DNA of 24,087 bases. Origin: a virus. Location of the stretch: positions 1 through 24,087 of IMG/VR virus record IMGVR_UViG_3300023216_000815, one strand, 5' to 3'. Below, in pieces: positions 3,106-23,176 of this stretch; the first letter of the stretch is position 1, and each line of letters begins with the position of its first letter. The translations under genes and the position numbers were made by a program. The notes under the pieces are model-generated. The model was not told where the DNA came from and did no database searches. It worked only from the letters and a program-made list of their open reading frames with translations.

Positions 3106-3327
3106 ATGAAAACCAAGAGAGCAATGAAACCTTATACTTGCTACCTATGCAAGGACCCCATCGAGAGGGGTAACCAATATGCCCGGAAGAGTATAACTCT
3201 AGGCTATATGGGAACTTGGGGACATAGTAAGGAATGCAAGTGTTGCGGTGGGGTAATGCCTGATTGGGCTGCTACTGACCTCATACGCTCAACGGAACCT
3301 GTATGTTCCCCATGTGCTAATGGCTAA
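3106..3327 (+). CDS. Small Cys-rich zinc-binding protein (73 aa)
   Basis: The ATG at 3106 follows a good ribosome site (TAGGAGA, six bases ahead). The product is basic at its N-terminus and has CYLC at 12-15, CKCC in the middle and a final CSPC, enough for one or two four-Cys zinc sites. The first part (YTCYLCKDPIERGNQY) resembles a zinc ribbon. It is the second and last gene of the unit behind the 2286 promoter and ends 23 bp before the terminator. Pairing with a methyltransferase suggests a DNA-related job, which is inference only. Confidence 0.68.
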   Translation: MKTKRAMKPYTCYLCKDPIERGNQYARKSITLGYMGTWGHSKECKCCGGVMPDWAATDLIRSTEPVCSPCANG

Positions 3328-3350
3328 CCTATATATACATATCCTAATAA

Positions 3351-3391
3351 AAAGACTCGACACCCGGTTTCCCGGTGCCGGGTCTTTTTTT
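3351..3391 (+). terminator. Rho-independent terminator after the methyltransferase/zinc-protein unit
   Basis: A long imperfect stem pairs AAAGACTCG and CACC on the left with GGTG and CGGGTCTTT on the right (one mismatch, one G-T pair). The loop is C/G-rich and the stem is followed by a run of seven T ending at 3391. It closes the 2350-3327 unit. Confidence 0.88.
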
Positions 3392-3400
3392 GTGGTCCTC

Positions 3401-3415
3401 GATCATCTTTCCCTT
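3401..3415 (+). repeat. Post-terminator repeat, copy C
   Basis: GATCATCTTTCCCTT starts ten bases after the T run of the 3351-3391 terminator. It differs from copy B at 2226-2240 by a single base. All three copies in the window share this position behind a terminator. Confidence 0.6.
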
Positions 3416-3474
3416 GCGGCCCTGCGGGTAGTTGCGGGTCGTGCGGGTGGTCGTCGGGGCGCCCAAGGCCGCAA
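3414..3474. repeat. Perfect 8-bp inverted repeat enclosing three GCGGGT copies
   Basis: TTGCGGCC (3414-3421) and GGCCGCAA (3467-3474) are exact reverse complements. The 45-bp interval has three direct GCGGGT copies at 10- and 9-bp spacing, about one helical turn, the usual layout of protein-binding iterons. It may be a replication or regulatory site, or a structured RNA element; nothing visible decides which. Confidence 0.5.
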
Positions 3475-3611
3475 AACCGGGGCATTCGGACCCAAGCCCT
3501 CGCTTGAGCCGATGGCCTCGATTTTGGCCTCTGGCTGTTGGGGCCGTATGAGCATGAGCCGGTGGGTTCTCGTGGCCTTGACTATAAATTATAAAAGGGG
3601 CAATAAACTAG

Positions 3612-3689: not shown

Positions 3690-3718
3690 TTGACTTGGGG
3701 CTATCAAGACTATAGGAT
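3690..3718 (+). promoter_or_regulatory. Sigma70-type promoter for the lipoprotein/HTH gene group
   Basis: TTGACT at 3690-3695, 17 bp, then TAGGAT at 3713-3718; TATAGG at 3711-3716 with a 15-bp spacer is an alternative -10. The -35 flank TTGACTTGG is shared with the promoters at 2286, 8282 and 11756. The leader to the next gene is about 100 bases, much longer than behind the other promoters. Confidence 0.7.
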
Positions 3719-6070: not shown

Positions 6071-6099
6071 TTGACTTAGACCTTAGTAGGTGGTAAAGT
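6071..6099 (+). promoter_or_regulatory. Sigma70-type promoter for the 6134-8285 gene group
   Basis: TTGACT at 6071-6076, a 17-bp spacer and TAAAGT at 6094-6099. The -10 is weaker than average, but spacer length and the TTGACTTA flank match the family. The predicted leader to the ATG at 6134 is about 27 bases and includes a strong ACGGAGGT ribosome site. Confidence 0.72.
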
Positions 6100-7024: not shown

Positions 7025-7209
7025 TGCCTGAATATAACGTAGAACTTGAAATGACCATCGTTGAAGTGGTCAACATATTTGCTGACTCTCCCGAAGATGC
7101 GGAGAGAATCGCTAGAGAGAGGGGGTGGTCCTCTCTAACCAATGGCATCGGCAATTGGGATATCACCAAACAATATGAAACAGCAACTGAGGTCGAGGAG
7201 ACAAAATAA
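7024..7209 (+). CDS. Small DpnD/PcfM-like protein (61 aa)
   Basis: The product begins with alternating hydrophobic residues (YNVELEMTIVEVVNIFADS) and continues with PEDAERIARERGW, so a strand-strand-helix fold. This resembles the DpnD/PcfM-type domain (a beta hairpin followed by an S.EEA helix), common next to methyltransferase genes and in mobile elements. The match is by pattern only. It ends inside the ATG of the C5-methyltransferase at 7209, so the two are translationally coupled, which supports a link between them. Confidence 0.58.
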   Translation: MPEYNVELEMTIVEVVNIFADSPEDAERIARERGWSSLTNGIGNWDITKQYETATEVEETK

Positions 7210-8285
7210 TGCAACACTACTCCGTTTTAGAACTTTTCGCAGGTGCAGGTGGACTCGCCTTAGGTCTTGAAAAAGCCGGGTTTAAATCCTGCCTGTTGAA
7301 TGAATTCAACAAAGACGCATGTGCCACCCTACGTAAGAATCGTCCTGATTGGAATGTCGTAGAGGGTGATGTATCCACCATAGATTTCACTGAGTATCGT
7401 GACAAGGTCGATGTACTAGCCGGTGGATTCCCATGCCAAGCCTTTTCTATGGCTGGAAAACGATTAGGCTTTGATGATATTCGAGGGACAATGTTCTATG
7501 AATTCGCCAGAGCCGTCAAAGAGGTCAATCCTAAGTTCATAGTGGCAGAGAACGTCATAGGTCTACTGTCCCATGATGGTGGCAAGACATTGGAAACCAT
7601 AACTAACGTCATTGACGACCTTGGATACACATTGGTTAAGCCAACTGTCTTAAAGGCGGTGCAACATGGTGTACCTCAAAGGCGAGAACGTCTGGTCTTA
7701 GTTGGAATACGTAAGGATCTTGTTGAACAAACGTTTTTCACATACCCAAAGCCTCTTGATGAGATGTTCACCCTACGTGATGCTTTAATGGCTGGAAAAC
7801 TATATGACACTGATGTCCCCGAATCTACCAACCCAACCTATTCTCAGAGAAAATCTGAAATCATGGATATGGTTGAACCCGGTAAGAACTGGAAAAGCCT
7901 ACCTGAAGATATCCAAGTGGAATACATGAAGAATAGCCTTTATGGTGGCGGTGGCAGGACTGGCTATGCCCGTCGATTAGCTTGGGATGAACCAAGCCTA
8001 ACGCTGACATGCTCTCCAGCTCAGACGCAAACAGAACGTTGTCACCCTGATGAAACTCGACCACTTACTGTACGTGAGTATGCCCGAATCCAAACCTTTC
8101 CTGATGAATGGGAATTTGAGGGTTCCATGTCTAGTGTTTACAAGCAGATTGGAAATGCTGTTCCAGTTAACTTGGGCTATGAGATAGGACGCTCTTTGCA
8201 GAATGCCCTCAAGACTCTAACAAAGACTGTATTGCATCTGTCCGACGCAGAGATGGTGGATGGTGGACGCAATTTAGACTATTGA
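7209..8285 (+). CDS. DNA (cytosine-5-)-methyltransferase
   Basis: A complete C5-cytosine methyltransferase of 358 residues, normal for the family. It transfers a methyl group from SAM to C5 of cytosine in a DNA recognition site. Motif I is ELFAGAGG at about 8-15; motif IV is GGFPCQAFS with catalytic Cys76; motif VI is AENV (113-116); motif VIII is QRRER (157-161). The target-recognition region spans roughly 190-280 (GGGGRTGYARRLAWDEPSL), motif IX is RPLTVREYARIQTFPD, and motif X is QIGNAVPVNLGY. GAGGAG precedes the ATG. No partner restriction enzyme is visible, so it is probably an orphan protecting phage DNA. I cannot read the recognition site from sequence. Its TGA stop is embedded in the -35 box of the next promoter. 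Confidence 0.95.
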   Translation: MQHYSVLELFAGAGGLALGLEKAGFKSCLLNEFNKDACATLRKNRPDWNVVEGDVSTIDFTEYRDKVDVLAGGFPCQAFSMAGKRLGFDDIRGTMFYEFARAVKEVNPKFIVAENVIGLLSHDGGKTLETITNVIDDLGYTLVKPTVLKAVQHGVPQRRERLVLVGIRKDLVEQTFFTYPKPLDEMFTLRDALMAGKLYDTDVPESTNPTYSQRKSEIMDMVEPGKNWKSLPEDIQVEYMKNSLYGGGGRTGYARRLAWDEPSLTLTCSPAQTQTERCHPDETRPLTVREYARIQTFPDEWEFEGSMSSVYKQIGNAVPVNLGYEIGRSLQNALKTLTKTVLHLSDAEMVDGGRNLDY

Positions 8286-8310
8286 CTTGGCGACGTAAAT
8301 CTACTATCAT
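8282..8310 (+). promoter_or_regulatory. Sigma70-type promoter overlapping the stop codon of the upstream methyltransferase
   Basis: TTGACT at 8282-8287 contains the TGA stop (8283-8285) of the 7209 gene. A 17-bp spacer leads to TATCAT at 8305-8310, and the predicted leader to the ATG at 8340 is about 22 bases and carries AAAGGAA as ribosome site. Confidence 0.8.
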
Positions 8311-8339: not shown

Positions 8340-9653
8340 ATGCAACACACAATTCAACCCAAATGTATCGAGCTCTTCGCTGGAGTAGGTGGATTCCGAT
8401 TAGGTCTAGAAAAGGCCGGATGGGATGTCACTTGGAGCAACCAGTGGGAACCCAATAAAACAAAGCAATGGGCAGCAGAGGTCTATCGCCATCGATTCGG
8501 TGATGATGGGTTTGTAAATGAAGACATATGTAATGTTAATGCCTCTCGCCTACCCGATCATGATTTGCTAGTTGGTGGATTCCCCTGCCAGGATTACTCC
8601 GTAGCAAAACCGCTTAATCAATCTGCGGGGATCCAAGGCAAGAAGGGTGTCCTGTGGTGGGAAATTTTCCGAATCCTGCAAGAAAAGAAGCCCACTTACG
8701 TTCTACTAGAGAATGTAAGTCGATTACTCTCTACTCCCACTAATAACCGTGGGAGAGACTTTGCCACCATCCTAGCGTGTTTCAATGCCTTGAACTACGT
8801 GGTGGAGTGGCAGGTAATCAATGCAGGGGATTATGGATATCCTCAGAGCCGTAAGCGTGTATTCATATTGGCCTATAAAAGACCTAATGATAATTCCCGT
8901 GCTGATCAAAACATTCTTAGAAAAGAATTCCCCTACTATTCAAAGGGGAACTCCAGTGCCTTTAAACTCCTACCAGAAAGGACTCCCTCCAACTGGTTCT
9001 GTACCAGACAATGGGAGACAAATAGCAATGGAGTAATCGAGGACATTTCTAACTATCTTCATGCGGTATCCACTGAATGGGATAAAGTCCATAAAGAGTC
9101 TAAGACCTCCCCCTTTAAAGATGCTGGCATAGCCTATGGTGGGAATGTTTGGACTGTGAAGATTGAACCAGTCTATAAAGGCCCACAAAAGACTCTTGAA
9201 ATGATTCTTCAAGACAAAAAGGTCATACCAGAGGACTTTTACATCCCAGAAGAGAAACTAGGCCGATGGGAGTACCTCAAAGGGTCTAAGAAAGAGCAGA
9301 GAGTCCATAAGGAGACAGGAACCACTTGGCAGTACTCTGAGGGGGCTGTAACCTTCCCAGACGCTTTAAATCGGCCCTCTCGCACGATAGTGACAGGTGA
9401 GGGTGGAACATCCCCATCCCGGTTCAAGCATGTCATTCAAACAGAAGATGGTCGTTACCGTCGATTAACTCCTGTTGAGTTGGAACGTCTTAATGGATTC
9501 CCCGATGAGTGGACCAGTCTTAAAGGATGTCCTGACAAGAAAATCACCGATGGGCAAAGAGCCTTTTTGATGGGCAATGCCTTGGTGGTAGGAATCATCG
9601 AACAGATTGGAAAAGGAATTTTAAACGCAAAGAAGGTGGTTAAAGATGAGTAA
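8340..9653 (+). CDS. Second DNA (cytosine-5-)-methyltransferase
   Basis: A 437-residue C5-cytosine methyltransferase. Motif I is ELFAGVGGFRLGLEKAG (about 11-27), motif IV is GGFPCQDYSVA with catalytic Cys83, motif VI is LENVSRLL (from 123), motif VIII is QSRKRVF (169-175). A long variable region of about 180 residues follows, holding the target-recognition domain; then RTIVTGEGGTSPSRF, motif IX RRLTPVELERLNGFPD, and motif X GNALVVGI. It begins with the same MQH as the 7209 enzyme, but the recognition region differs in length and sequence, so it probably has another target. It has its own promoter and a good ribosome site, and overlaps the next gene by 8 bp. No cognate endonuclease is visible. 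Confidence 0.95.
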   Translation: MQHTIQPKCIELFAGVGGFRLGLEKAGWDVTWSNQWEPNKTKQWAAEVYRHRFGDDGFVNEDICNVNASRLPDHDLLVGGFPCQDYSVAKPLNQSAGIQGKKGVLWWEIFRILQEKKPTYVLLENVSRLLSTPTNNRGRDFATILACFNALNYVVEWQVINAGDYGYPQSRKRVFILAYKRPNDNSRADQNILRKEFPYYSKGNSSAFKLLPERTPSNWFCTRQWETNSNGVIEDISNYLHAVSTEWDKVHKESKTSPFKDAGIAYGGNVWTVKIEPVYKGPQKTLEMILQDKKVIPEDFYIPEEKLGRWEYLKGSKKEQRVHKETGTTWQYSEGAVTFPDALNRPSRTIVTGEGGTSPSRFKHVIQTEDGRYRRLTPVELERLNGFPDEWTSLKGCPDKKITDGQRAFLMGNALVVGIIEQIGKGILNAKKVVKDE

Positions 9654-11083: not shown

Positions 11084-11759
11084 TAATGAAGTCTTAAGTG
11101 AACGAGCAGTCGAATTGGGATTCCGTATTGAGGGAACTACCTATTGGCCTAATAAGTCTTATGAATATGTCGTAGGACTGACATTTGATAAGGAAACATT
11201 TCCTAAGGAAACATTTCCCACTACTGATTCGTTCTTCTTACATAGATCTATAACCGCTGATTCTGCACAAGATGCACAACTCAAAGCAGCCCAAGAGGTT
11301 TATAAGCAGTTTGCACCACTCGTAACTCCAAGAGTTCCAGCAGGATTCAATGTTCAAAAATATGTGAAACTTGGCTATTCCGATCTTGAGATTCGAGATT
11401 TCATAGATGAACATATCGACAGTCCTGCAACTGATTTACGTCATGATCGACGAGAAGGGCGCTCTAATGAATCCTTTATAAACCTACGAGTTGATTTATG
11501 GGATGATAAGGATATTCAGATTCAATACCCAAACATCTGGTATGCCCAGAAGAAAATTTATGAAGGAAAGTGGATACCGGGTAACAACCCTTATCCTCAA
11601 TTCCCACTTTATCTACGGCTCTATAATGATCCGGACCGGGGCATAACATCTGATTCTTATAAGGGAAAAACCTTTAAAGAATGTCTAGCTGAGAATGATT
11701 TATGGTGGAATATCCCGACAAACCAATTTGAGGAGGTCCAACTTTCACTCAGCATTTGA
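11061..11759 (+). CDS. Hypothetical protein (232 aa) with a 15-bp tandem duplication
   Basis: An unrecognised 232-residue protein rich in Tyr, Trp and Pro in its second half. It has no signal peptide, membrane segment or Cys cluster. Near residues 44-53 the pentapeptide KETFP occurs twice in a row, encoded by a tandem 15-bp repeat at 11190-11204 and 11205-11219 that differs at one base. It begins inside the previous gene, with GGAG about ten bases ahead. Its TGA stop at 11757-11759 lies in the -35 box of the next promoter, as in the 7209 gene. Confidence 0.66.
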   Translation: MQLITLDSNEVLSERAVELGFRIEGTTYWPNKSYEYVVGLTFDKETFPKETFPTTDSFFLHRSITADSAQDAQLKAAQEVYKQFAPLVTPRVPAGFNVQKYVKLGYSDLEIRDFIDEHIDSPATDLRHDRREGRSNESFINLRVDLWDDKDIQIQYPNIWYAQKKIYEGKWIPGNNPYPQFPLYLRLYNDPDRGITSDSYKGKTFKECLAENDLWWNIPTNQFEEVQLSLSI

Positions 11760-11784
11760 CTTGGAGATATCTTAGCTATAGACT
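11756..11784 (+). promoter_or_regulatory. Sigma70-type promoter overlapping a stop codon, with a very short leader
   Basis: TTGACT at 11756-11761 contains the TGA stop of the 11061 gene. A 17-bp spacer leads to TAGACT at 11779-11784 (TATAGA at 11777 with a shorter spacer is the alternative). Transcription would begin near 11791, under ten bases before the ATG at 11800, so its mRNA could be almost leaderless. Confidence 0.72.
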
Positions 11785-12042: not shown

Positions 12043-12052
12043 AGGAATCTAC

Positions 12053-12319
12053 ATGACAGTTAATACTGAAACATATAAATATCACACAGACACACTTACC
12101 ATTGGACATCTACTTCATGCAGGTAAAGAGTGCTATTGCAAGAATTGTTCAACTCAGTTGATAGCCACAATGAGGTTAGGGTCTATCTACTGTAAGGTCT
12201 GTGAGGATCAACGGGGAGAAGTTCCATTCATAGTGTGGCTTCACCAAGATTGCCCAGAAACAGGCTGTGGAGAACATTGCTTAAATGATGAGGTAATGGC
12301 TGAAGGACAAACAACATAA
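12053..12319 (+). CDS. Small zinc-ribbon-like protein (88 aa)
   Basis: I choose the ATG at 12053, preceded by AAAGGAA; the longer frame from 11990 overlaps the previous gene. The product has CYCKNC at about 28-33 and CKVC at about 49-52, the spacing of a zinc ribbon, then a third group CPETGCGEHC. The family is unclear. Its stop overlaps the ATG of the first HTH-zinc paralogue (TAATG at 12317-12321), so the two are translationally coupled. Confidence 0.65.
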   Translation: MTVNTETYKYHTDTLTIGHLLHAGKECYCKNCSTQLIATMRLGSIYCKVCEDQRGEVPFIVWLHQDCPETGCGEHCLNDEVMAEGQTT

Positions 12320-12888
12320 TGGCTAATCAGATAAGGTACAACACTGAAAAATATCCGCGAAGTGATTCACGTAAAATGATTATAGGGTTACGTGTTACTC
12401 ACCCAGAGTGGACTCTTAAACAGATTGGAGACAAGGTGGGGTGCTCTAGGGAACGTGTGCGTCAAATTCTTGCAAGTGAGGGGATGGAGTCACGTTCTAC
12501 AAAGGCCGTATATGCTCGTCAACCCAGGCACTTGAAGAAAGGTCCGCCATGCAAACATTGTGGAACACCTGTACCCTATACTTTTTATTCTAAATCCAGA
12601 AGTGGAAGATATCCAAAATACTGTAGTCCGATTTGCCGTGTAAAGTATTATCACACCGATGTAACCTGTAGTCATTGTAAGAAGATGTTTGTGCTGGGCA
12701 AAAGCCAGGTTAAATCTAGAAAAGAACGTAATAAGGACTTATATTGTAGCCACTCATGTCGCAGTAAGGTATATTGGGCTATTGTTAAAAACGAAAGACC
12801 CAATACTTTCGAATATTCAACACATCAGCCAATGACTCAAACCTCTAGAAAGGATAGTAAAAATGACGATAAGACAAACAGTAATTGA
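12319..12888 (+). CDS. HTH (sigma70 region 4-like) plus double zinc-site protein, paralogue 1 (189 aa)
   Basis: Residues about 30-51 read WTLKQIGDKVGCSRERVRQI, closely similar to the region 4.2 HTH of sigma70 factors (TLEEIG..F.VTRERIRQI), which contacts the promoter -35 element. No region 2 or 3 is present, so it is not a sigma factor. A conserved link (RSTKAVY...KKGPPC) leads to eight Cys in the order CxxC (78, 81), CxxxC (102, 106), CxxC (117, 120), CxxxC (143, 147), two treble-clef-like zinc sites. The tail is basic and polar. It shares this layout with the genes at 12863 and 14728. A DNA-binding regulator is the likely role; a homing-enzyme-like DNA-binding module is another option. Confidence 0.75.
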   Translation: MANQIRYNTEKYPRSDSRKMIIGLRVTHPEWTLKQIGDKVGCSRERVRQILASEGMESRSTKAVYARQPRHLKKGPPCKHCGTPVPYTFYSKSRSGRYPKYCSPICRVKYYHTDVTCSHCKKMFVLGKSQVKSRKERNKDLYCSHSCRSKVYWAIVKNERPNTFEYSTHQPMTQTSRKDSKNDDKTNSN

Positions 12889-13387
12889 CCTTCGAATTAA
12901 TCATCCAGATTGGACATTACACAAGATCGGTCAAGCAGTTGATAGAACTAGAGAACGTGTACGCCAAATCCTTATAAGTGAGAATTTGGAACAACGTTCA
13001 ACCAAGGCAGCATATTCAAGACTGCCATCACATCTTAAGAAAGGTCCGCCTTGTCCGAAATGTGGAACACTTGTCCCTTATAGGGAGAGATCTTATGAGA
13101 GCGGATACAGAGGTGGATCTTACCCAAAATATTGTAGTGCTGAATGTCTTCCAAGGGAAGAAACTATTGAATTGATATGTTTCTACTGCACTAAAGCTTA
13201 TGTACTAACAATCCCACAAGCTAAGAGTCGTCAACGTCGAATAGCAAAGGGGTTATATAAGGCAACCTATTGTAGTCACTCATGTAGTAGTCATGCTTAT
13301 TGGGATGTTGTTCACGGTAAAACACCTAATGACTTTAACTACAATCTTGAACTTGGCCCCAAAGGTATTAAAAGAGAGCTATCGTAA
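12863..13387 (+). CDS. HTH (sigma70 region 4-like) plus double zinc-site protein, paralogue 2 (174 aa)
   Basis: Overlaps paralogue 1 by 26 bp and repeats its architecture. The HTH is at about 17-37 (WTLHKIGQAVDRTRERVRQI), followed by RSTKAAYSRLPSHLKKGPPC and eight Cys in the same order: CxxC (64, 67), CxxxC (91, 95), CxxC (106, 109), CxxxC (137, 141). The link and first zinc unit are alike in DNA as well (around 12529-12570 and 13027-13080), showing that the pair arose by tandem duplication. The last 30 residues differ. Its stop overlaps the ATG of the SLOG gene (TAATG). Function as for paralogue 1. Confidence 0.75.
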   Translation: MTIRQTVIDLRINHPDWTLHKIGQAVDRTRERVRQILISENLEQRSTKAAYSRLPSHLKKGPPCPKCGTLVPYRERSYESGYRGGSYPKYCSAECLPREETIELICFYCTKAYVLTIPQAKSRQRRIAKGLYKATYCSHSCSSHAYWDVVHGKTPNDFNYNLELGPKGIKRELS

Positions 13388-13737
13388 TGAATATCTTAAT
13401 TTGTGGGGATCGACACTACAAAGATTGGAAAAAAATTCAGGATTATCTGCAAACCTTAAACCCAACAAGTGATGTAATCATTCATGGAGCAGCTAAAGGG
13501 GCCGATAGTTTGGCTGGAAACCTAGCAACCTCTATGAAGATGAAGGTCCTTGAATTTCCTGCGAAATGGGAAGAATTCAATCGGGCTGCAGGTTCAATTC
13601 GAAATCAACAAATGATTGATGAGGGGCATCCTGACCTAGTGGTATATTTCCATGACAATCTAGACGATAGCAAAGGCACAAAGGATATGGTTAATAGAGC
13701 AACGAGGATAAACATCCCCATATTAGCGAATCCTTAA
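13387..13737 (+). CDS. DUF2493 / SLOG-family Rossmann-like protein (116 aa)
   Basis: The start NILICGDRHYKDW, then VIIHGAAKGADSLA at about 30-43, then a block FPAKWEEFNRAAGSIRN and FHDNLDDSKGTKDM match DUF2493 of the SLOG superfamily (G..RGADSLA, PA.W...GRAAGP.RN, SKGT). Such single-domain proteins have a Rossmann-like fold and are thought to bind nucleotides or nucleotide-derived ligands. They are widespread in phages and their exact role is not known. At 116 residues it is a normal-length single domain. It starts on the stop codon of paralogue 2. Confidence 0.85.
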   Translation: MNILICGDRHYKDWKKIQDYLQTLNPTSDVIIHGAAKGADSLAGNLATSMKMKVLEFPAKWEEFNRAAGSIRNQQMIDEGHPDLVVYFHDNLDDSKGTKDMVNRATRINIPILANP

Positions 13738-13760
13738 CCCTGGAAAATTAAGGAGAATTT

Positions 13761-14033
13761 ATGATTGAAGTTCAACTACGAGATGCTTGTTTTTCTTGCA
13801 ATGGAAGGGGCACCTTTCGTAGCAAAGAGGTAATTTCTTCAATGTGTGCAGATTGCGAGGGCTTGGGGTCAATTTATACTTGGATATCTATTGAAGAATT
13901 AAGTAATATGACGGCTGAAATTCAATTACAAAAAATAGAAAGATCCAAATTCCCATCGATTGAGGAAAATATATTTCAAAACCCTTTCTCAACAGATAAT
14001 GATTTAAATATAACCCCAAATCCGAATATTTAA
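13761..14033 (+). CDS. DnaJ-type zinc-finger protein (90 aa)
   Basis: Two CxxCxGxG repeats, CFSCNGRGTF at about 10-19 and CADCEGLGSI at about 29-38, are the zinc-binding repeats of the DnaJ central domain. A short hydrophobic helix follows (YTWISIEEL). There is no J-domain, so it is not a chaperone; isolated two-repeat proteins of this form are common in phages with unknown roles. The tail is polar, Asn- and Pro-rich. AAGGAG lies seven bases before the ATG, one of the stronger ribosome sites in the region. Confidence 0.75.
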   Translation: MIEVQLRDACFSCNGRGTFRSKEVISSMCADCEGLGSIYTWISIEELSNMTAEIQLQKIERSKFPSIEENIFQNPFSTDNDLNITPNPNI

Positions 14034-14047
14034 GGAAGGTCGAATAA

Positions 14048-14731
14048 ATGACTAGCAAACGAATCTATAAGGTCACATTAACAGGTTGGGTGGTTAAGAA
14101 TGAAAATGATTCCGAGGTCAATGAATGGACCAAAGAATCTATTCTCGATGCAATAGTTGGTGAACAGTTAATGGTTAATTTCATCGACAGCAATGACATG
14201 GTAGTCACTCCAACTAGGTCAGATGTTGTCCCTGAAAAACGTAAGCCAGGCCGTCCCCCTAAGGTAAATAAGACAGAGGCCGAAGATGACAAAGCTAAGG
14301 CACTAAAATATGCTGCTGTATATGGTGCAGGAGATAAAAAACTCGAAGAGTTGGAAGAAAAGTGGGATGGAATCATCCAAGAAGCAAATGTGGATAATAC
14401 CGATAAGTATCCAACCGATCCTGCACAAGAGGGACGAGATGCAGTTAAAGCTGACGAAGAATTTGAGGAACTGGGAAAATTAATACTCGCAAGTCAACAA
14501 CCAGGTACTAATTCTCAAGACCCAGATGGGCCGGTCTATGATGAATCAGAAGTAATACCCGGAGTCGCTAATACAGTTGGTCAGAACTTGGCACAAGAAG
14601 CGTTAGATTTAATTGAAGCAAAGGATGAGATAGACAAACGACAGGCTGATGAATCTGATGGGCCATCCCCATTGGTAATGGAATTCGAGGGCGATGATGA
14701 AGAGGCCGATGATTCAGAGATGTCTTTATGA
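14048..14731 (+). CDS. Acidic protein with an AT-hook motif (227 aa)
   Basis: The N-terminal 55 residues look like a small strand-rich domain (YKVTLTGWVVKNE). Then comes EKRKPGRPPKVNK at about 63-75, a canonical AT-hook core (GRP flanked by basic residues) that binds the minor groove of A+T-rich DNA. The remaining 150 residues are helical to disordered and strongly acidic, ending in GDDEEADDSEMSL. The same motif type occurs in the proteins at 16135 (three copies) and 19520. AAGGAAGG is the ribosome site. Its stop overlaps the ATG of the third HTH-zinc paralogue (ATGA). Confidence 0.7.
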   Translation: MTSKRIYKVTLTGWVVKNENDSEVNEWTKESILDAIVGEQLMVNFIDSNDMVVTPTRSDVVPEKRKPGRPPKVNKTEAEDDKAKALKYAAVYGAGDKKLEELEEKWDGIIQEANVDNTDKYPTDPAQEGRDAVKADEEFEELGKLILASQQPGTNSQDPDGPVYDESEVIPGVANTVGQNLAQEALDLIEAKDEIDKRQADESDGPSPLVMEFEGDDEEADDSEMSL

Positions 14732-15141
14732 GCTCACAGCCAATTAACCGAGACAGACACACTAAATGGAAACAAGCCGTTGAATATCGAAAAGCATTTC
14801 CTGAGATGACGTTAAGGGAAATTGGAGATGCCGTAGGCTACACACGAGAACGTATCCGTCAAATCCTTTCCGTGGAAAACTTGTCAACCAGATCTAGTGG
14901 TAGGGTTTATGGTAAACCTAAATCGCTTTGTTTAACCTGTAATCAGCCAGTTCCACGAAGGCGAATGTTATACTGTAGCCCAGAATGTAGGCATCCAAGC
15001 GGAAAAACAACTTTCCTTTGCGTCCAGTGTAATCAACCTGTAACTGTGATGACTTCAATCTATAAAAGTCGATCTTCTCGATCTTCAAATATTTATTGCA
15101 ATCGAACTTGTAGAGATTTAGGACATAAATTAAAAGGTTAA
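14728..15141 (+). CDS. HTH (sigma70 region 4-like) plus double zinc-site protein, paralogue 3 (137 aa)
   Basis: The shortest of the three paralogues. The HTH at about 28-47 reads MTLREIGDAVGYTRERIRQI, the closest of the three to sigma70 region 4.2. Then SVENLSTRSSGRVYG leads to the same eight-Cys order: CxxC (68, 71), CxxxC (83, 87), CxxC (98, 101), CxxxC (124, 128), with compact intervals. The protein is strongly basic. It is separated from paralogues 1 and 2 by three unrelated genes, so it is an older or relocated copy. Translation is coupled to the AT-hook gene by ATGA overlap. A DNA-binding regulator is the most likely role. Confidence 0.75.
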   Translation: MSSQPINRDRHTKWKQAVEYRKAFPEMTLREIGDAVGYTRERIRQILSVENLSTRSSGRVYGKPKSLCLTCNQPVPRRRMLYCSPECRHPSGKTTFLCVQCNQPVTVMTSIYKSRSSRSSNIYCNRTCRDLGHKLKG

Positions 15142-16072: not shown

Positions 16073-16101
16073 TTGACTTAAGGTTATTTATCGGCTATAC
16101 T
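16073..16101 (+). promoter_or_regulatory. Sigma70-type promoter for the AT-hook/SNF2 unit
   Basis: TTGACT at 16073-16078, 17 bp, then TATACT at 16096-16101. The -10 matches the consensus at five of six positions. The predicted leader to the ATG at 16135 is about 26 bases and contains GAAGG. It begins one base after the preceding stop codon. Confidence 0.83.
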
Positions 16102-16614: not shown

Positions 16615-18294
16615 ATGTTAGTTCAATTTCCTTACAATAAAGAATTAATCGACGAAATTAAATCTATTCCAGGGCGTAAGTATCGTCCAAATGATAAAGG
16701 GTGGGATATACCAGAGGAATTCCTCCCCACTGCGGCCGAGATGATTCGCCCCTATTATCCAAATATTGCTGACACTGTCAGTGATTATTTCACGTTAACT
16801 TCTGACGGACCAACGTTGGCGGATATATCCACAGCTACATCTAAAGAAGATCTAATTGAGATTGATAGTCTCAAACTTCTTGAAGATGTGCGTGAGCGTC
16901 TAGATACACCCTTTCCTCTCTATGCCTACCAAGAACTCGCTGTAGCCTTCTTAGAGGCCAGAATCGGGACCAGAGGGGCATTAATAGGGGATCAACCGGG
17001 GTTGGGGAAGACCATTGAAGCTTTAGCTTTTTGCTCCCTACATCCACAAGTTAAACCGATCTTGGTAGTGACACTGGCAACAATTAAAAGGAACTGGTAT
17101 CGAGAAGTTGAAAAATGGCTTCCCGGTATCTCTATTCAAATCATTAACCAAGGTAAGGATCTAATAGATTCTGATGCTGATGTAGTCATCATCAACTATG
17201 ATTTGATATGGAGAGCCAAGATTGAAAAACAACTATTAGCACGAAAATTTCAGATTGTAATATTTGATGAGATAACCTATCTCAAGGAACGGTCTACCAA
17301 ACGGACGAAAGCAGCTCGAAAGCTTGGAAAGGCTGCTGCATTCACTATTGGACTTTCGGGTACTCCAATCCTAAATCGTCCTATTGAGTTCTACACGTTT
17401 TTGAATATGATTAGTCCAAAGCAATTCTCTTCCCAATTTCAATTTGGGATGCGATATTGTAATGGCTATCACAATGGCTTCGGGTACACCTTTAAAGGAG
17501 CTAGTCGTGTGAGTGAACTCCGTCAATTGATTCACCCCTTGATGATTAGACGGAAAAAAGAGGAAGTGTTGACAGAACTTCCTGCGAAAAGCCGTCAAAA
17601 TATCTACATCGACATGCCTGGAAGCTATTTTCAGAACTATCGTGCAGCCGAATTAGATTTAGTTCAAAGCTTAAAAAGCTTAAACCCTGATGATGAAGAA
17701 GCTGATGTCTCCAAAGAGTATGAAGACAAACAGATGTGGCTTCTTTCAAAATTAAACTTCTTACGACATTTAGTAGGATTGGCTAAAGCTGATGCAGCAG
17801 AGGAGATCATCACTAGTTTTGTTGATTCGGGGGAAAAGCTAGTTGTATTTGGACATCACCATGATGTGATGGACAAAATGGATGCATACCTAACGAAGAA
17901 TAAAATCGGGCATGTCACTGTAGATGGACGAACTCCTACTCAAAAACGACAAGATGCAATTGATACATTCCAAGAAGACGACGATTGTATGGTCTTTTTG
18001 GCATCTACGGCAATGGGAATGGGAGTCACACTCACAGCCGCTAGCAATGCTTTATTTGTGGAACGTCAATGGACCCCAGGCATGGAAGAACAAATGGAGG
18101 ACCGAATACATCGGATTGGGCAAAATCGGGGGGTCTTCATTCATTACATGCAGATAGAGAACAGCATCGATGCCAAAATGGCAAAGCTAGTGGAATATAA
18201 GCGTGATGTGTTGGCAGCCGTATTAGATGGAGAACGTCAACGAGATCGTGGGGAGAGCATAATCAACGAACTATTAGGTGAATTATCTAAATAA
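16615..18294 (+). CDS. SNF2-family helicase/translocase of SMARCAL1 (HARP) type
   Basis: A 559-residue superfamily 2 ATPase. The N-terminus (FPYNKELIDEIKSIPGRKYR, then KGWDIP) resembles the HARP-like domain of SMARCAL1-type annealing helicases. Walker A is GDQPGLGKT (125-133). Motif II is DEIT (218-221) where most relatives have DEAH. Motif III is SGTP (248-251), and motif VI is RIHRIGQ (497-503), typical of SNF2 enzymes. Length fits the compact phage form. These proteins translocate on double-stranded DNA and may rewind single strands or remodel replication forks. It is the last plus-strand gene and overlaps the convergent minus gene by 8 bp. Confidence 0.93.
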   Translation: MLVQFPYNKELIDEIKSIPGRKYRPNDKGWDIPEEFLPTAAEMIRPYYPNIADTVSDYFTLTSDGPTLADISTATSKEDLIEIDSLKLLEDVRERLDTPFPLYAYQELAVAFLEARIGTRGALIGDQPGLGKTIEALAFCSLHPQVKPILVVTLATIKRNWYREVEKWLPGISIQIINQGKDLIDSDADVVIINYDLIWRAKIEKQLLARKFQIVIFDEITYLKERSTKRTKAARKLGKAAAFTIGLSGTPILNRPIEFYTFLNMISPKQFSSQFQFGMRYCNGYHNGFGYTFKGASRVSELRQLIHPLMIRRKKEEVLTELPAKSRQNIYIDMPGSYFQNYRAAELDLVQSLKSLNPDDEEADVSKEYEDKQMWLLSKLNFLRHLVGLAKADAAEEIITSFVDSGEKLVVFGHHHDVMDKMDAYLTKNKIGHVTVDGRTPTQKRQDAIDTFQEDDDCMVFLASTAMGMGVTLTAASNALFVERQWTPGMEEQMEDRIHRIGQNRGVFIHYMQIENSIDAKMAKLVEYKRDVLAAVLDGERQRDRGESIINELLGELSK

Positions 18295-18911: not shown

Positions 18912-19109
18912 TTAATTACCGTGAGAACCATTTAACTTAATAATCATATTAATCGCTATTTCCATCTCAGCCGGGAAATTTCTATTTGCACACTGTAAAC
19001 ACACTAATTCGTAGGTGTTGTCAGGTAAGATTTCTTCATCAATAGTGATTGGTCCACCGCATTTAGGACACGGACATTTAATGTGGGGAAACTGCCCTAT
19101 TGATATCAT
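18912..19109 (-). CDS. Zinc-ribbon protein (65 aa)
   Basis: CPCPKCGG (from about residue 12) and CLQC (about 37-40) form a classic zinc ribbon: a first knuckle followed by Gly and a strand (ITIDEE), and a second knuckle after about 20 residues. A helix follows (AEMEIAINMIIKL). The start overlaps the preceding nuclease gene by 32 bp. Zinc ribbons of this size often act as subunits or adaptors in nucleic-acid complexes. The nuclease next door is a possible partner. Confidence 0.68.
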   Translation of the reverse strand: MISIGQFPHIKCPCPKCGGPITIDEEILPDNTYELVCLQCANRNFPAEMEIAINMIIKLNGSHGN

Positions 19110-21262: not shown

Positions 21263-21645
21263 TACGGCAATCCATAAGTATTAGGTTCTCGATCTTCAGC
21301 ATCCGGTCCACCAATCGCTGACTGCTCATTCTTAATTTCTTGTGTAGGACGTTTAGTTTCTTGCATCTTTTTAGCGGCAAGAATAGCGTGTATTGAATTT
21401 TGAAGTTCAAAGAGAAGAGAGTTACCATACTCCATCTTCTCTAAATCAAGGATTAAATTATAAATATCTAAAGCCGGACCCGGTTCCATTCCAGCGAGAA
21501 CAGGTTCAAATTCTTCTTCTGATTTGTATAAATAGTCATGTAAATCAGGATGATGGGCCTGATCGAGAGAATGCCAACGATCATAGCCATCATGCCGATG
21601 GTGACCATCTTTCTGTAGCAACTTAGGTCGCCCGGTTTTAGCCAT
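21262..21645 (-). CDS. Hypothetical protein with His/Asp-rich N-terminus (127 aa)
   Basis: The first 45 residues are basic and full of His, Asp and Tyr (MAKTGRPKLLQKDGHHRHDG), with a short half-AT-hook (TGRPK). A helical middle follows (LDIYNLILDLEKMEYGNSLL; LQNSIHAILAAKKM), and the end is polar. The ATG overlaps the end of the upstream gene by 8 bp. I do not recognise a family. A metal-binding role for the His-rich tract is possible. Confidence 0.58.
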   Translation of the reverse strand: MAKTGRPKLLQKDGHHRHDGYDRWHSLDQAHHPDLHDYLYKSEEEFEPVLAGMEPGPALDIYNLILDLEKMEYGNSLLFELQNSIHAILAAKKMQETKRPTQEIKNEQSAIGGPDAEDREPNTYGLP

Positions 21646-23176
21646 TTATACCCACCACATCTAACATCTCATCAACATAGACTAACCCAGACTCATGTGA
21701 AAGAAGTATTTCAATAGATTCATCTACTAAATACTGCTGTGATTTCTTCAATTCATCTGTGCCCTCTTCACCAGCCGTTTCAGGCTTAGAAGATTTAATC
21801 TTATTCATTCGTTTCTTTGCAACTTCAAGCCATTTAGGATTGTATTCTTTGTGATCCTTAGCATCCGCCTCTGAAACCTTGAAGAATCGTTCTATATCAC
21901 CTTTCAGAATTACGGCTAATTTCTTGTAATCAGCCTCGTCTCCCTTCGGACCAACCTTACTCATAAAGAGATGATTTTCAACTATATTAGACACACGGTT
22001 AACAGTATCTTTAGGTACACCTAATTCGGTTAGAATACTCATTGTCATTTGGGCGCCCGTTTTATCGTGACCGGGGAAATGAGTATTATTATCAGTTCCA
22101 GTCTTATTTTTTCCAATATCATGGAATAAAATAGCTAGATTTACAATCGCATCAGTACTAGCTGCATTTTTAAGAGCTGTAATCGTATGTTTCCAAACAT
22201 TAGTCTGTTTGTGATTCTTGCCCCGTTGCTTGGTTTCTTCCATCGCAACTAAATCTTTTGAGATAAATTTAAGCTGATCGTTATCCGCTAAAAATTGTAA
22301 CCCAATCCAAGACTTTTCAGTCTGCATTATCTTAACCAGTTCAAACCCAATACGATGCTTCTTAACCCCTGATAATGCCTCAGAGTTAGCCTTTAAACCC
22401 TTCAAAACAGATGGATGGGCTTTAATAGGAAAATCGGCTAGAAATCTAGCACCACGCAAGATTCTAGTCGGATCTTCTTTAAAAGATTTAACACTATCAT
22501 TGTTAGGGGCTCGTAGCCACTTTAATTTGATATCTTCCATGCCTCTAGTTGGATCATAAAATTGACCTGTAACAGATTGAGCAACAGCATTAATCGTAAA
22601 ATCTCTAGTTCGTAGATTATTAAGAAGTTCATCCGGTGTAGTTGATATTAAATCAACTTTCATCCCGCCAACCTTAAACTGTAATCTCGAATGAGAATTA
22701 CTTCTCTCTGTGAACTCAATATTTATCTGCTTCAAGACTTCCTTTGCTTCCTCTAATGAAATAAGGGCAACTAAATCTATATCTTTAGAGACTTTCTTAA
22801 AGAATTTATCTCTAACAAAACCACCTACAAAATAAATAGGCAGATAATTCCCCAACATTCGAATCCAGTCAGACGCACGTTTTCGTTGTTCTAACTGTTC
22901 AGCAACCTTTGGATTAACCCATGCAGTTCTAGCACGTTCAAAAGTCCTACCGCCTCGGTGTACTAATTCATAAATCTTAGTACGCACCTTTCCAGTAGGA
23001 TCTTCTTTTGCTTCCTCTGAACGAGGTTTTCCCTCTTGCTCAAATTGCTCTGCACGGGGGTCAGAGGCCGGGTCAGACCTTTCAGTTTGAGCCTGACGAT
23101 ATTCAGCTACAGCTTGCTTTGCAAGCGTATAGTCCAGTCGCAATAAAAGTTTATCTACGTTAGACAGTTCTGTCAT
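21638..23176 (-). CDS. CCA-adding tRNA nucleotidyltransferase / poly(A) polymerase-like protein with HD domain (512 aa)
   Basis: Residues about 110-250 form a class II nucleotidyltransferase head: VGGFVRD (117-123), the metal-binding DID (132-134), RDFTINAVA (191-199) and EDPTRILRGARF (234-245), all hallmarks of CCA-adding enzymes and poly(A) polymerases. Residues about 325-405 are an HD phosphohydrolase domain: NVWKHTI, FHDIGK (351-356), HFPGH (366-370) and ENHLF, as in the bacterial CCA enzyme. An N-terminal extension of about 105 residues is not part of that family; it has a disordered acidic-polar part and then basic segments. The enzyme could repair tRNA 3' ends during infection. CCA and poly(A) addition cannot be told apart here. 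No tRNA gene is in the window. Confidence 0.85.
   Translation of the reverse strand: MTELSNVDKLLLRLDYTLAKQAVAEYRQAQTERSDPASDPRAEQFEQEGKPRSEEAKEDPTGKVRTKIYELVHRGGRTFERARTAWVNPKVAEQLEQRKRASDWIRMLGNYLPIYFVGGFVRDKFFKKVSKDIDLVALISLEEAKEVLKQINIEFTERSNSHSRLQFKVGGMKVDLISTTPDELLNNLRTRDFTINAVAQSVTGQFYDPTRGMEDIKLKWLRAPNNDSVKSFKEDPTRILRGARFLADFPIKAHPSVLKGLKANSEALSGVKKHRIGFELVKIMQTEKSWIGLQFLADNDQLKFISKDLVAMEETKQRGKNHKQTNVWKHTITALKNAASTDAIVNLAILFHDIGKNKTGTDNNTHFPGHDKTGAQMTMSILTELGVPKDTVNRVSNIVENHLFMSKVGPKGDEADYKKLAVILKGDIERFFKVSEADAKDHKEYNPKWLEVAKKRMNKIKSSKPETAGEEGTDELKKSQQYLVDESIEILLSHESGLVYVDEMLDVVGING

Follow-up and report, generated by a model that had tools for sequence, protein, structure and literature searches.

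The proteins considered here have a helix-turn-helix (HTH) most like that in region 4.2 of principal sigma factors. In sigma70, residues R584 and E585 contact the bases at -31 and -33 (PMC2613000), R584, E585 and Q589 have been named as the -35-reading residues (PMC8407463), and a wider set is listed elsewhere (PMC4943231). In phage T4, the -35 region of middle promoters is taken over from sigma region 4 by the activator MotA (PMC2988021). Proteins combining an HTH with zinc sites occur in many temperate Firmicutes phages and many uncultivated ones, under inconsistent annotations, and literature searches returned no study of the layout of an HTH plus two four-cysteine sites. Here we describe three paralogous genes of this layout in a 24,087-base virus record (IMGVR_UViG_3300023216_000815), the whole of which is called the window. 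The genes start at 12319, 12863 and 14728 and encode the proteins P0001, P0002 and P0003, hereafter the trio. We propose from their sequences, at a probability of roughly 0.5, that the trio are promoter-binding regulators which read the TTGAC core and, without the core-binding parts of sigma, act mainly by covering the -35 box. What is new is a sigma-like variant of a widespread, unstudied phage family; the layout itself has relatives.

Three paralogous genes and their relatives

All three genes lie on the + strand, and their open reading frames (ORFs), Pfam matches and common motif agreed with the original prediction of a shared architecture of one HTH and two zinc sites. In each protein a short N-terminal helix is followed by the HTH and then by two CxxC...CxxxC sites, which are putative zinc sites by their Cys spacing. 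Paralogue 1 (P0001, 189 amino acids, 12319-12888) has its HTH at amino acids 32-51 (TLKQIGDKVGCSRERVRQIL, 12412-12471), zinc site 1 at 12550-12636 (C78, C81, C102, C106), zinc site 2 at 12667-12759 (C117, C120, C143, C147) and a basic C-terminal tail; the whole protein contains 40 K/R and 15 D/E residues. The 5' end of the paralogue 2 gene (P0002, 174 amino acids, 12863-13387) overlaps the 3' end of the paralogue 1 gene by 26 bp. Its product has the same layout, with the HTH at amino acids 18-37 (12914-12973) and the zinc sites at 13052-13147 (C64, C67, C91, C95) and 13178-13285 (C106, C109, C137, C141). Paralogue 3 (P0003, 137 amino acids, 14728-15141), again of this layout, is the most compact and most conserved of the three, with the HTH at amino acids 28-47 (TLREIGDAVGYTRERIRQIL, 14809-14868) and the zinc sites at 14929-14988 (C68, C71, C83, C87) and 15019-15111 (C98, C101, C124, C128). 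The motif TL..IG..V...RER[VI]RQIL spans the HTH residues in all three proteins, and a search of the record with P0001 matched exactly the three loci. The cysteines, ordered CxxC-CxxxC-CxxC-CxxxC, had been counted as exactly eight in each protein; this is correct for P0002 and P0003 but not for P0001, which has nine, the ninth (C42) lying within the HTH.

The HTH had been described as resembling sigma70 region 4.2 and the proteins, for want of region 2, as not being sigma factors, and both statements were borne out. The Pfam Sigma70_r4 model, with a curated cut-off of 24.1 bits, matched P0001 at 31.3 bits (E 1.5e-7), P0002 at 24.2 bits (E 2.3e-5) and P0003 at 29.3 bits (E 5.9e-7). No Pfam match to the sigma region 2 model was found in any of the three, and the sigma models of NCBIfam matched the trio in region-4 stretches only, all below cut-off. 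A profile of 27 family members, compared with PDB sequences, found principal sigma factors as its best matches (SigA and RpoD entries, E 1e-6 to 2e-4), among them the Taq SigA region 4 entries 1ku3 and 1ku7. A Vibrio phage sigma-70 match (E 1e-3) was rejected as a relative, as it is a full sigma-like protein with the HTH part alone in common.

In the alignment of the 27 members, P29, E45, R46, R48 and Q49 (P0001 numbering) are invariant, as are seven of the eight zinc-motif cysteines, C102 being absent in a few. E45, R46, R48 and Q49 align with E585, R586, R588 and Q589 of E. coli sigma70. The residues with which sigma70 reads the -35 box, E585, R588 and Q589, thus have invariant equivalents in the family (PMC2613000, PMC8407463). 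The counterpart of R584 is R44, an arginine in most members that six replace by K or G; G is found in the second copies of the contigs L016, L018 and L020, and these members may prefer another base at -31. That the base-reading residues are conserved in proteins only 25-60% identical supports, but does not prove, that they recognise a TTGAC-like core.

AlphaFold models of P0001 and P0003 contained the HTH, in line with the original prediction. Their mean predicted local distance difference test (pLDDT) scores were 79 and 84, and the HTH and second zinc module were mostly at about 90 or above. In P0001 the HTH helices are at 33-40 and 44-53 (pLDDT >90) and zinc site 2 scores about 90-95, and in P0003 the HTH helices are at 29-36 and 40-49. 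The predicted template modelling scores were low (0.45 for P0001, 0.42 for P0003), so that the models leave the relative placement of the parts unfixed. In these models the HTH is not followed by any counterpart of the terminal helix with which region 4 binds the beta flap. Among viral models, the best Foldseek matches were mostly uncharacterised zinc-finger or zinc-ribbon proteins, and the sub-threshold Pfam matches of the trio were zf-FCS and LIM.

A sister contig of 38 kb (L004) carries orthologues of all three genes in the same order, with the 26-bp overlap of the first two kept. Identities are 60% for paralogue 1, 91% for paralogue 2 and 98% for paralogue 3, the last being among the most conserved proteins of the compared region. 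The ratios of nonsynonymous to synonymous substitution (dN/dS) are 0.29, 0.23 and 0.08, respectively; all three paralogues are under purifying selection and, given this and the kept order, the three ORFs are real genes. An arms-race signal in the fast-evolving paralogue 1 was rejected, because its dS is also raised (1.08), and replacement of the allele is a likelier cause than positive selection. A defence or anti-defence assignment was likewise rejected, as PADLOC gave no match to the trio.

When IMG/VR was scanned by profile for relatives of the window and sister-phage proteins, at least 15 more contigs of uncultivated phages proved to carry the layout, most of them multi-copy. The sister phage and G005, a record of 141 kb (IMGVR_UViG_3300009108_000002), have three copies each, and there are two each in G002, G003, G006, G007, G009, G011 and G015, one G015 copy being cut by the contig end. 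Slots of the paralogue 2 and paralogue 3 types could be traced through L004, L011, L012 and L015, the paralogue 3 slot also in L014, and both slots keep their order and their neighbours in these diverged phages: a SLOG-family gene and homologues of the genes at 13761, 14048, 15146, 15601 and 16135. The eight-Cys layout persists in members as low as about 25-30% identity. Small groups are supported in the family tree and its deep order is unsupported.

Distant relatives sharing the layout were found in annotated phages, where they match PHROG 2308 (E 1e-47 to 1e-52), a group of unknown function. By tblastn such relatives occur in 142 phage records, mostly of streptococcal and other Firmicutes phages, annotated variously as hypothetical protein, HNH endonuclease, zinc-finger protein or RNA polymerase subunit sigma-70. 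The PHROG 2308 profile itself matched P0001 (E 2.1e-6, amino acids 31-147), P0003 (0.012) and P0009 (0.013), while P0002, P0007 and P0008 gave no match at E 0.1. Comparison of small alignments by hhalign gave a probability of 97.5% over 115 columns for the link to PHROG 2308, and when P0004-P0006 were added to an alignment, each of the eight Cys columns lined up in the order CxxC-CxxxC-CxxC-CxxxC. The statement that no named family has this layout is right only in part, since the layout matches PHROG 2308, which is large, unannotated and from Firmicutes phages; the branch with the sigma-like HTH is itself nameless. By sequence the trio are taken as a divergent branch of the PHROG 2308 kind, one whose recognition helix is closer to that of sigma.

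The PHROG 2308 gene recurs in set arrangements (L109, L110, L112, L113 and L114, and also L111, L115 and L116). It lies just upstream of a small ORF and large serine recombinases or of an excisionase and an integrase, often directly after the lysis genes; alternatively it follows an HNH gene and lies just upstream of a DNA methyltransferase. This position directly before recombinase, integrase or methyltransferase genes fits a regulator, and PHROG 2308 proteins are candidate regulators or directionality factors of integrase operons.

Promoter sites and possible roles

A promoter-like site at 11756-11784 (+ strand; TTGACTT, 17-nt spacer, TAGACT), with a counterpart in L004 at 5358, would drive a unit containing all three genes. 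No strong + strand terminator was found between it and the next promoter at 16073, which makes the single transcription unit of the original prediction plausible. Five more sites of this kind lie on the + strand at 2286-2314 (TTGACTTGG, TATAAT), 3690-3718 (TTGACTTGG, TAGGAT), 6071-6099 (TTGACTTAG, TAAAGT), 8282-8310 (TTGACTTGG, TATCAT) and 16073-16101 (TTGACTTAA, TATACT). The earlier count of six promoters with a conserved TTGACT was right and can be sharpened, as all six sites have TTGACTT, a fixed 17-nt spacer and TANNNT; the looser pattern TTGACT-N14-20-TANNNT gave 9 hits in the window against 2.4 expected. Conservation runs beyond the -35 hexamer, with TTGACTT followed by a non-T and a purine, the eighth position being non-T in the window sites whereas T is common there in the Listeria phages P100 and A511. 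The TTGACTT signature is spread through the phages of this clade and was counted 8 times in the sister record, 4 times in G003 and 32 times in G005, and the pattern read backwards 0-1 times. Position 8 is T in 2/51 of the TTGACTT sites and position 9 is a purine in 43/51; TTGAC with other non-A letters and then a non-T gave only 14 hits in six records.

The promoter class was then compared with the presence of the family. The window clade uses TTGACTT almost exclusively. G004, G007, G008, G009 and G011-G013 contain the family and have mainly TTGACA promoters. TTGAC is the -35 core common to both promoter classes in these phages. The early promoters of Listeria phage CKA15 carry TTGACTT (PMC12282133), and its relatives P100 and A511 have many TTGACTT sites, no member of the HTH-zinc family and only an HTH-less zinc ribbon. 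With TTGACTT in phages lacking the family and TTGACA in lineages having it, motif and family dissociate both ways. TTGACTT promoters were accordingly rejected as evidence of an operator of the family, and the tie to the window promoters implied in the original prediction fails on both comparisons.

In the proposed mechanism the trio would be sequence-specific regulators whose N-terminal HTH, copied from sigma70 region 4.2 or imitating it, reads the TTGAC core of -35 elements in phage promoters and possibly in host promoters too. The two zinc sites would stabilise the protein and add either DNA contacts or a protein-binding surface. Binding would cover the -35 box and block sigma-RNA polymerase, giving repression or a timed shut-off, and the fixed paralogues may act on different promoter subsets. 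Since the trio keep the -35-reading helix with no match to regions 2-3 or to the beta-flap-docking helix, the simplest outcome is occlusion, and the trio are probably occluders, acting as repressors or competitors. The architecture, the invariant -35-reading residues, the purifying selection and the fixed genomic slots are observed; binding to -35 DNA, binding of zinc and the negative effect are what we infer. If this is true, transcription would be controlled by mimicking the DNA-reading helix of sigma and not by replacing or inhibiting sigma. As the window branch keeps the exact -35-reading residues of sigma70, it provides a testable prediction, binding to TTGAC, for a family that has had none.

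Several points weigh against the proposed mechanism. The zinc modules could contact RNA polymerase and so make the trio activators despite the absent beta-flap helix, and zinc binding is itself judged from Cys spacing only. Foldseek searches against the PDB gave weak HTH matches only, none below E 0.001, and no whole-protein fold match. No operator is definable, as TTGACTT promoters occur without the family and the family also where TTGACA prevails. Finally, the conservation before the family gene of L016-L020 belongs to the upstream coding end; a conserved AGTAGT upstream of the -35, considered as an autoregulatory operator, was rejected as it reads as the closing codons and stop codon of the gene before.

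A related possibility, which we regard as unlikely, is that the trio are stand-alone phage mimics of sigma region 4, present as two or three fixed paralogues per genome, which compete with host sigma70 for -35 boxes. Such proteins, neither sigma nor anti-sigma, would in this way time the phage promoter classes or silence host promoters.

It is rather improbable that the trio are global -35 competitors which, made early, occupy TTGACA-type host or phage-early promoters and redirect RNA polymerase, the TTGACTT(V)(R) promoters differing enough to escape or to respond differently. G005, which has three family members, shows separate blocks of promoters: those at about 39-62 and 77-90 kb are of the TTGACTT class, and the one at about 63.5-73.5 kb is of the TTGACA class. 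The TTGACA block contains mostly small ORFs with a promoter nearly every 500 bp, and the whole looks like a temporal-class arrangement. The near-exclusive use of TTGACTT in the window clade also agrees with such redirection. However, promoter classes are mixed in a similar way in P100 and A511, where the family is missing, so a regulator of this kind is not required for them, and many family-bearing phages use TTGACA promoters for their own genes.

We also hold little expectation that the trio serve nearby genes for DNA modification or recombination as local accessory regulators or cofactors, the role that their PHROG 2308 relatives seem to have. In sampled Firmicutes and Gardnerella phages, serine recombinases, an excisionase-integrase pair or a DNA methyltransferase come directly after the PHROG 2308 gene, which usually overlaps or abuts the next ORF. 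In the window the trio have two C5 methyltransferase genes 2.7 kb upstream of them, and L011 and L014 contain a homologue of the one at 8340 close to their family gene. On the other hand, the fixed neighbours in the window clade are the SLOG-family gene and small unknown genes, not recombinases, and no integrase was seen among the genes checked. The lineage with an SNF2-helicase neighbour (L016, L018, L020) has no methyltransferase match nearby, and the PHROG 2308 recognition helix is not sigma-like. The two methyltransferase genes are adjacent (7209-8285 and 8340-9653; Pfam DNA_methylase, E 2e-85 and 5e-67), and no recognised restriction enzyme was found among the genes checked.

That the trio are DNA-targeting remnants or partners of HNH or homing endonucleases, with the HTH-zinc module as a free-standing nuclease DNA-binding part, is very doubtful: P0003 and P0008 have matches to the zinc part of PHROG 1271, an HNH endonuclease by annotation (E 1e-5 and 3e-6), HNH-annotated proteins are among the weak fold matches, and ORFs in L029 (2331-3020) and L040 (3535-4113) join an HTH of the same type to a different C-terminal domain, HNH-nuclease-like by eye, but Pfam finds no nuclease domain in these two ORFs, the trio have no nuclease domain in Pfam or NCBIfam, none of the 50 PDB fold matches listed is a nuclease, no HNH catalytic motif was seen between their Cys pairs, and two of the slots are vertically inherited under strong constraint, unlike sporadically inserted homing genes. 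The trio were therefore rejected as nucleases, and placement in such a family, which the original prediction had named as counting against it, was not found. The C-terminal domain of the L029 and L040 ORFs has the pattern CWWNML..CYNP...GGRGI..C.RW...IDN.G.Y.P.NC.WA.

Other features of the window

The gene at 16615-18294 encodes an SNF2-type helicase with an N-terminal HARP-like stretch, here in a phage, which resembles the helicase parts of the defence proteins ZorD and DpdE (PADLOC, E 1e-57 to 1e-55). A 512-amino-acid protein encoded at 21638-23176 (- strand) combines a poly(A) polymerase/CCA-adding head domain with an HD domain and is 96% identical in the sister phage. Other small Cys-rich proteins with CxxC pairs are encoded at 308-538, 1817-2125, 3106-3327, 12051-12319, 13761-14033 and 18912-19109 (the last on the - strand), and small putative zinc proteins seem unusually common in the window phage. 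The G+C content rises to about 0.6 at 3300-3600, compared with 0.41 for the genome, and a hairpin followed by T-rich sequence lies at 3362-3383, with no Rfam match. The portal protein was tried for host assignment and rejected, its nearest relatives being haloarchaeal tailed viruses at 25% identity, which is too distant.

Comparison with known systems

The trio share with region 4.2 of sigma70 (SigA/RpoD) the HTH pattern and the -35-reading residues. They differ in being without regions 1-3 and the C-terminal beta-flap helix, in the zinc modules that follow the HTH, and in a length of 137-189 amino acids. Their likeness to PHROG 2308 is one of layout over the whole length, a short HTH followed by CxxC...(F/Y)CSxxC...CxxC...YCSHxC, but the PHROG 2308 HTH has no RERVRQI recognition helix and is not sigma-like. 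PHROG 2308 is, moreover, a single gene adjoining integrases or methyltransferases, whereas the window trio adjoin the SLOG-family gene and small unknown genes. With PHROG 1271 the common part is the zinc module of P0003 and P0008, which matches positions of about 158-247 of 361; the rest of that 361-position profile is unmatched by the trio, in which no nuclease domain was found. The likeness to T4 MotA is conceptual, a small phage protein at the -35 region, and would be a functional analogy only: no sequence relation was found, and MotA recognises a TGCTT box and acts together with AsiA.

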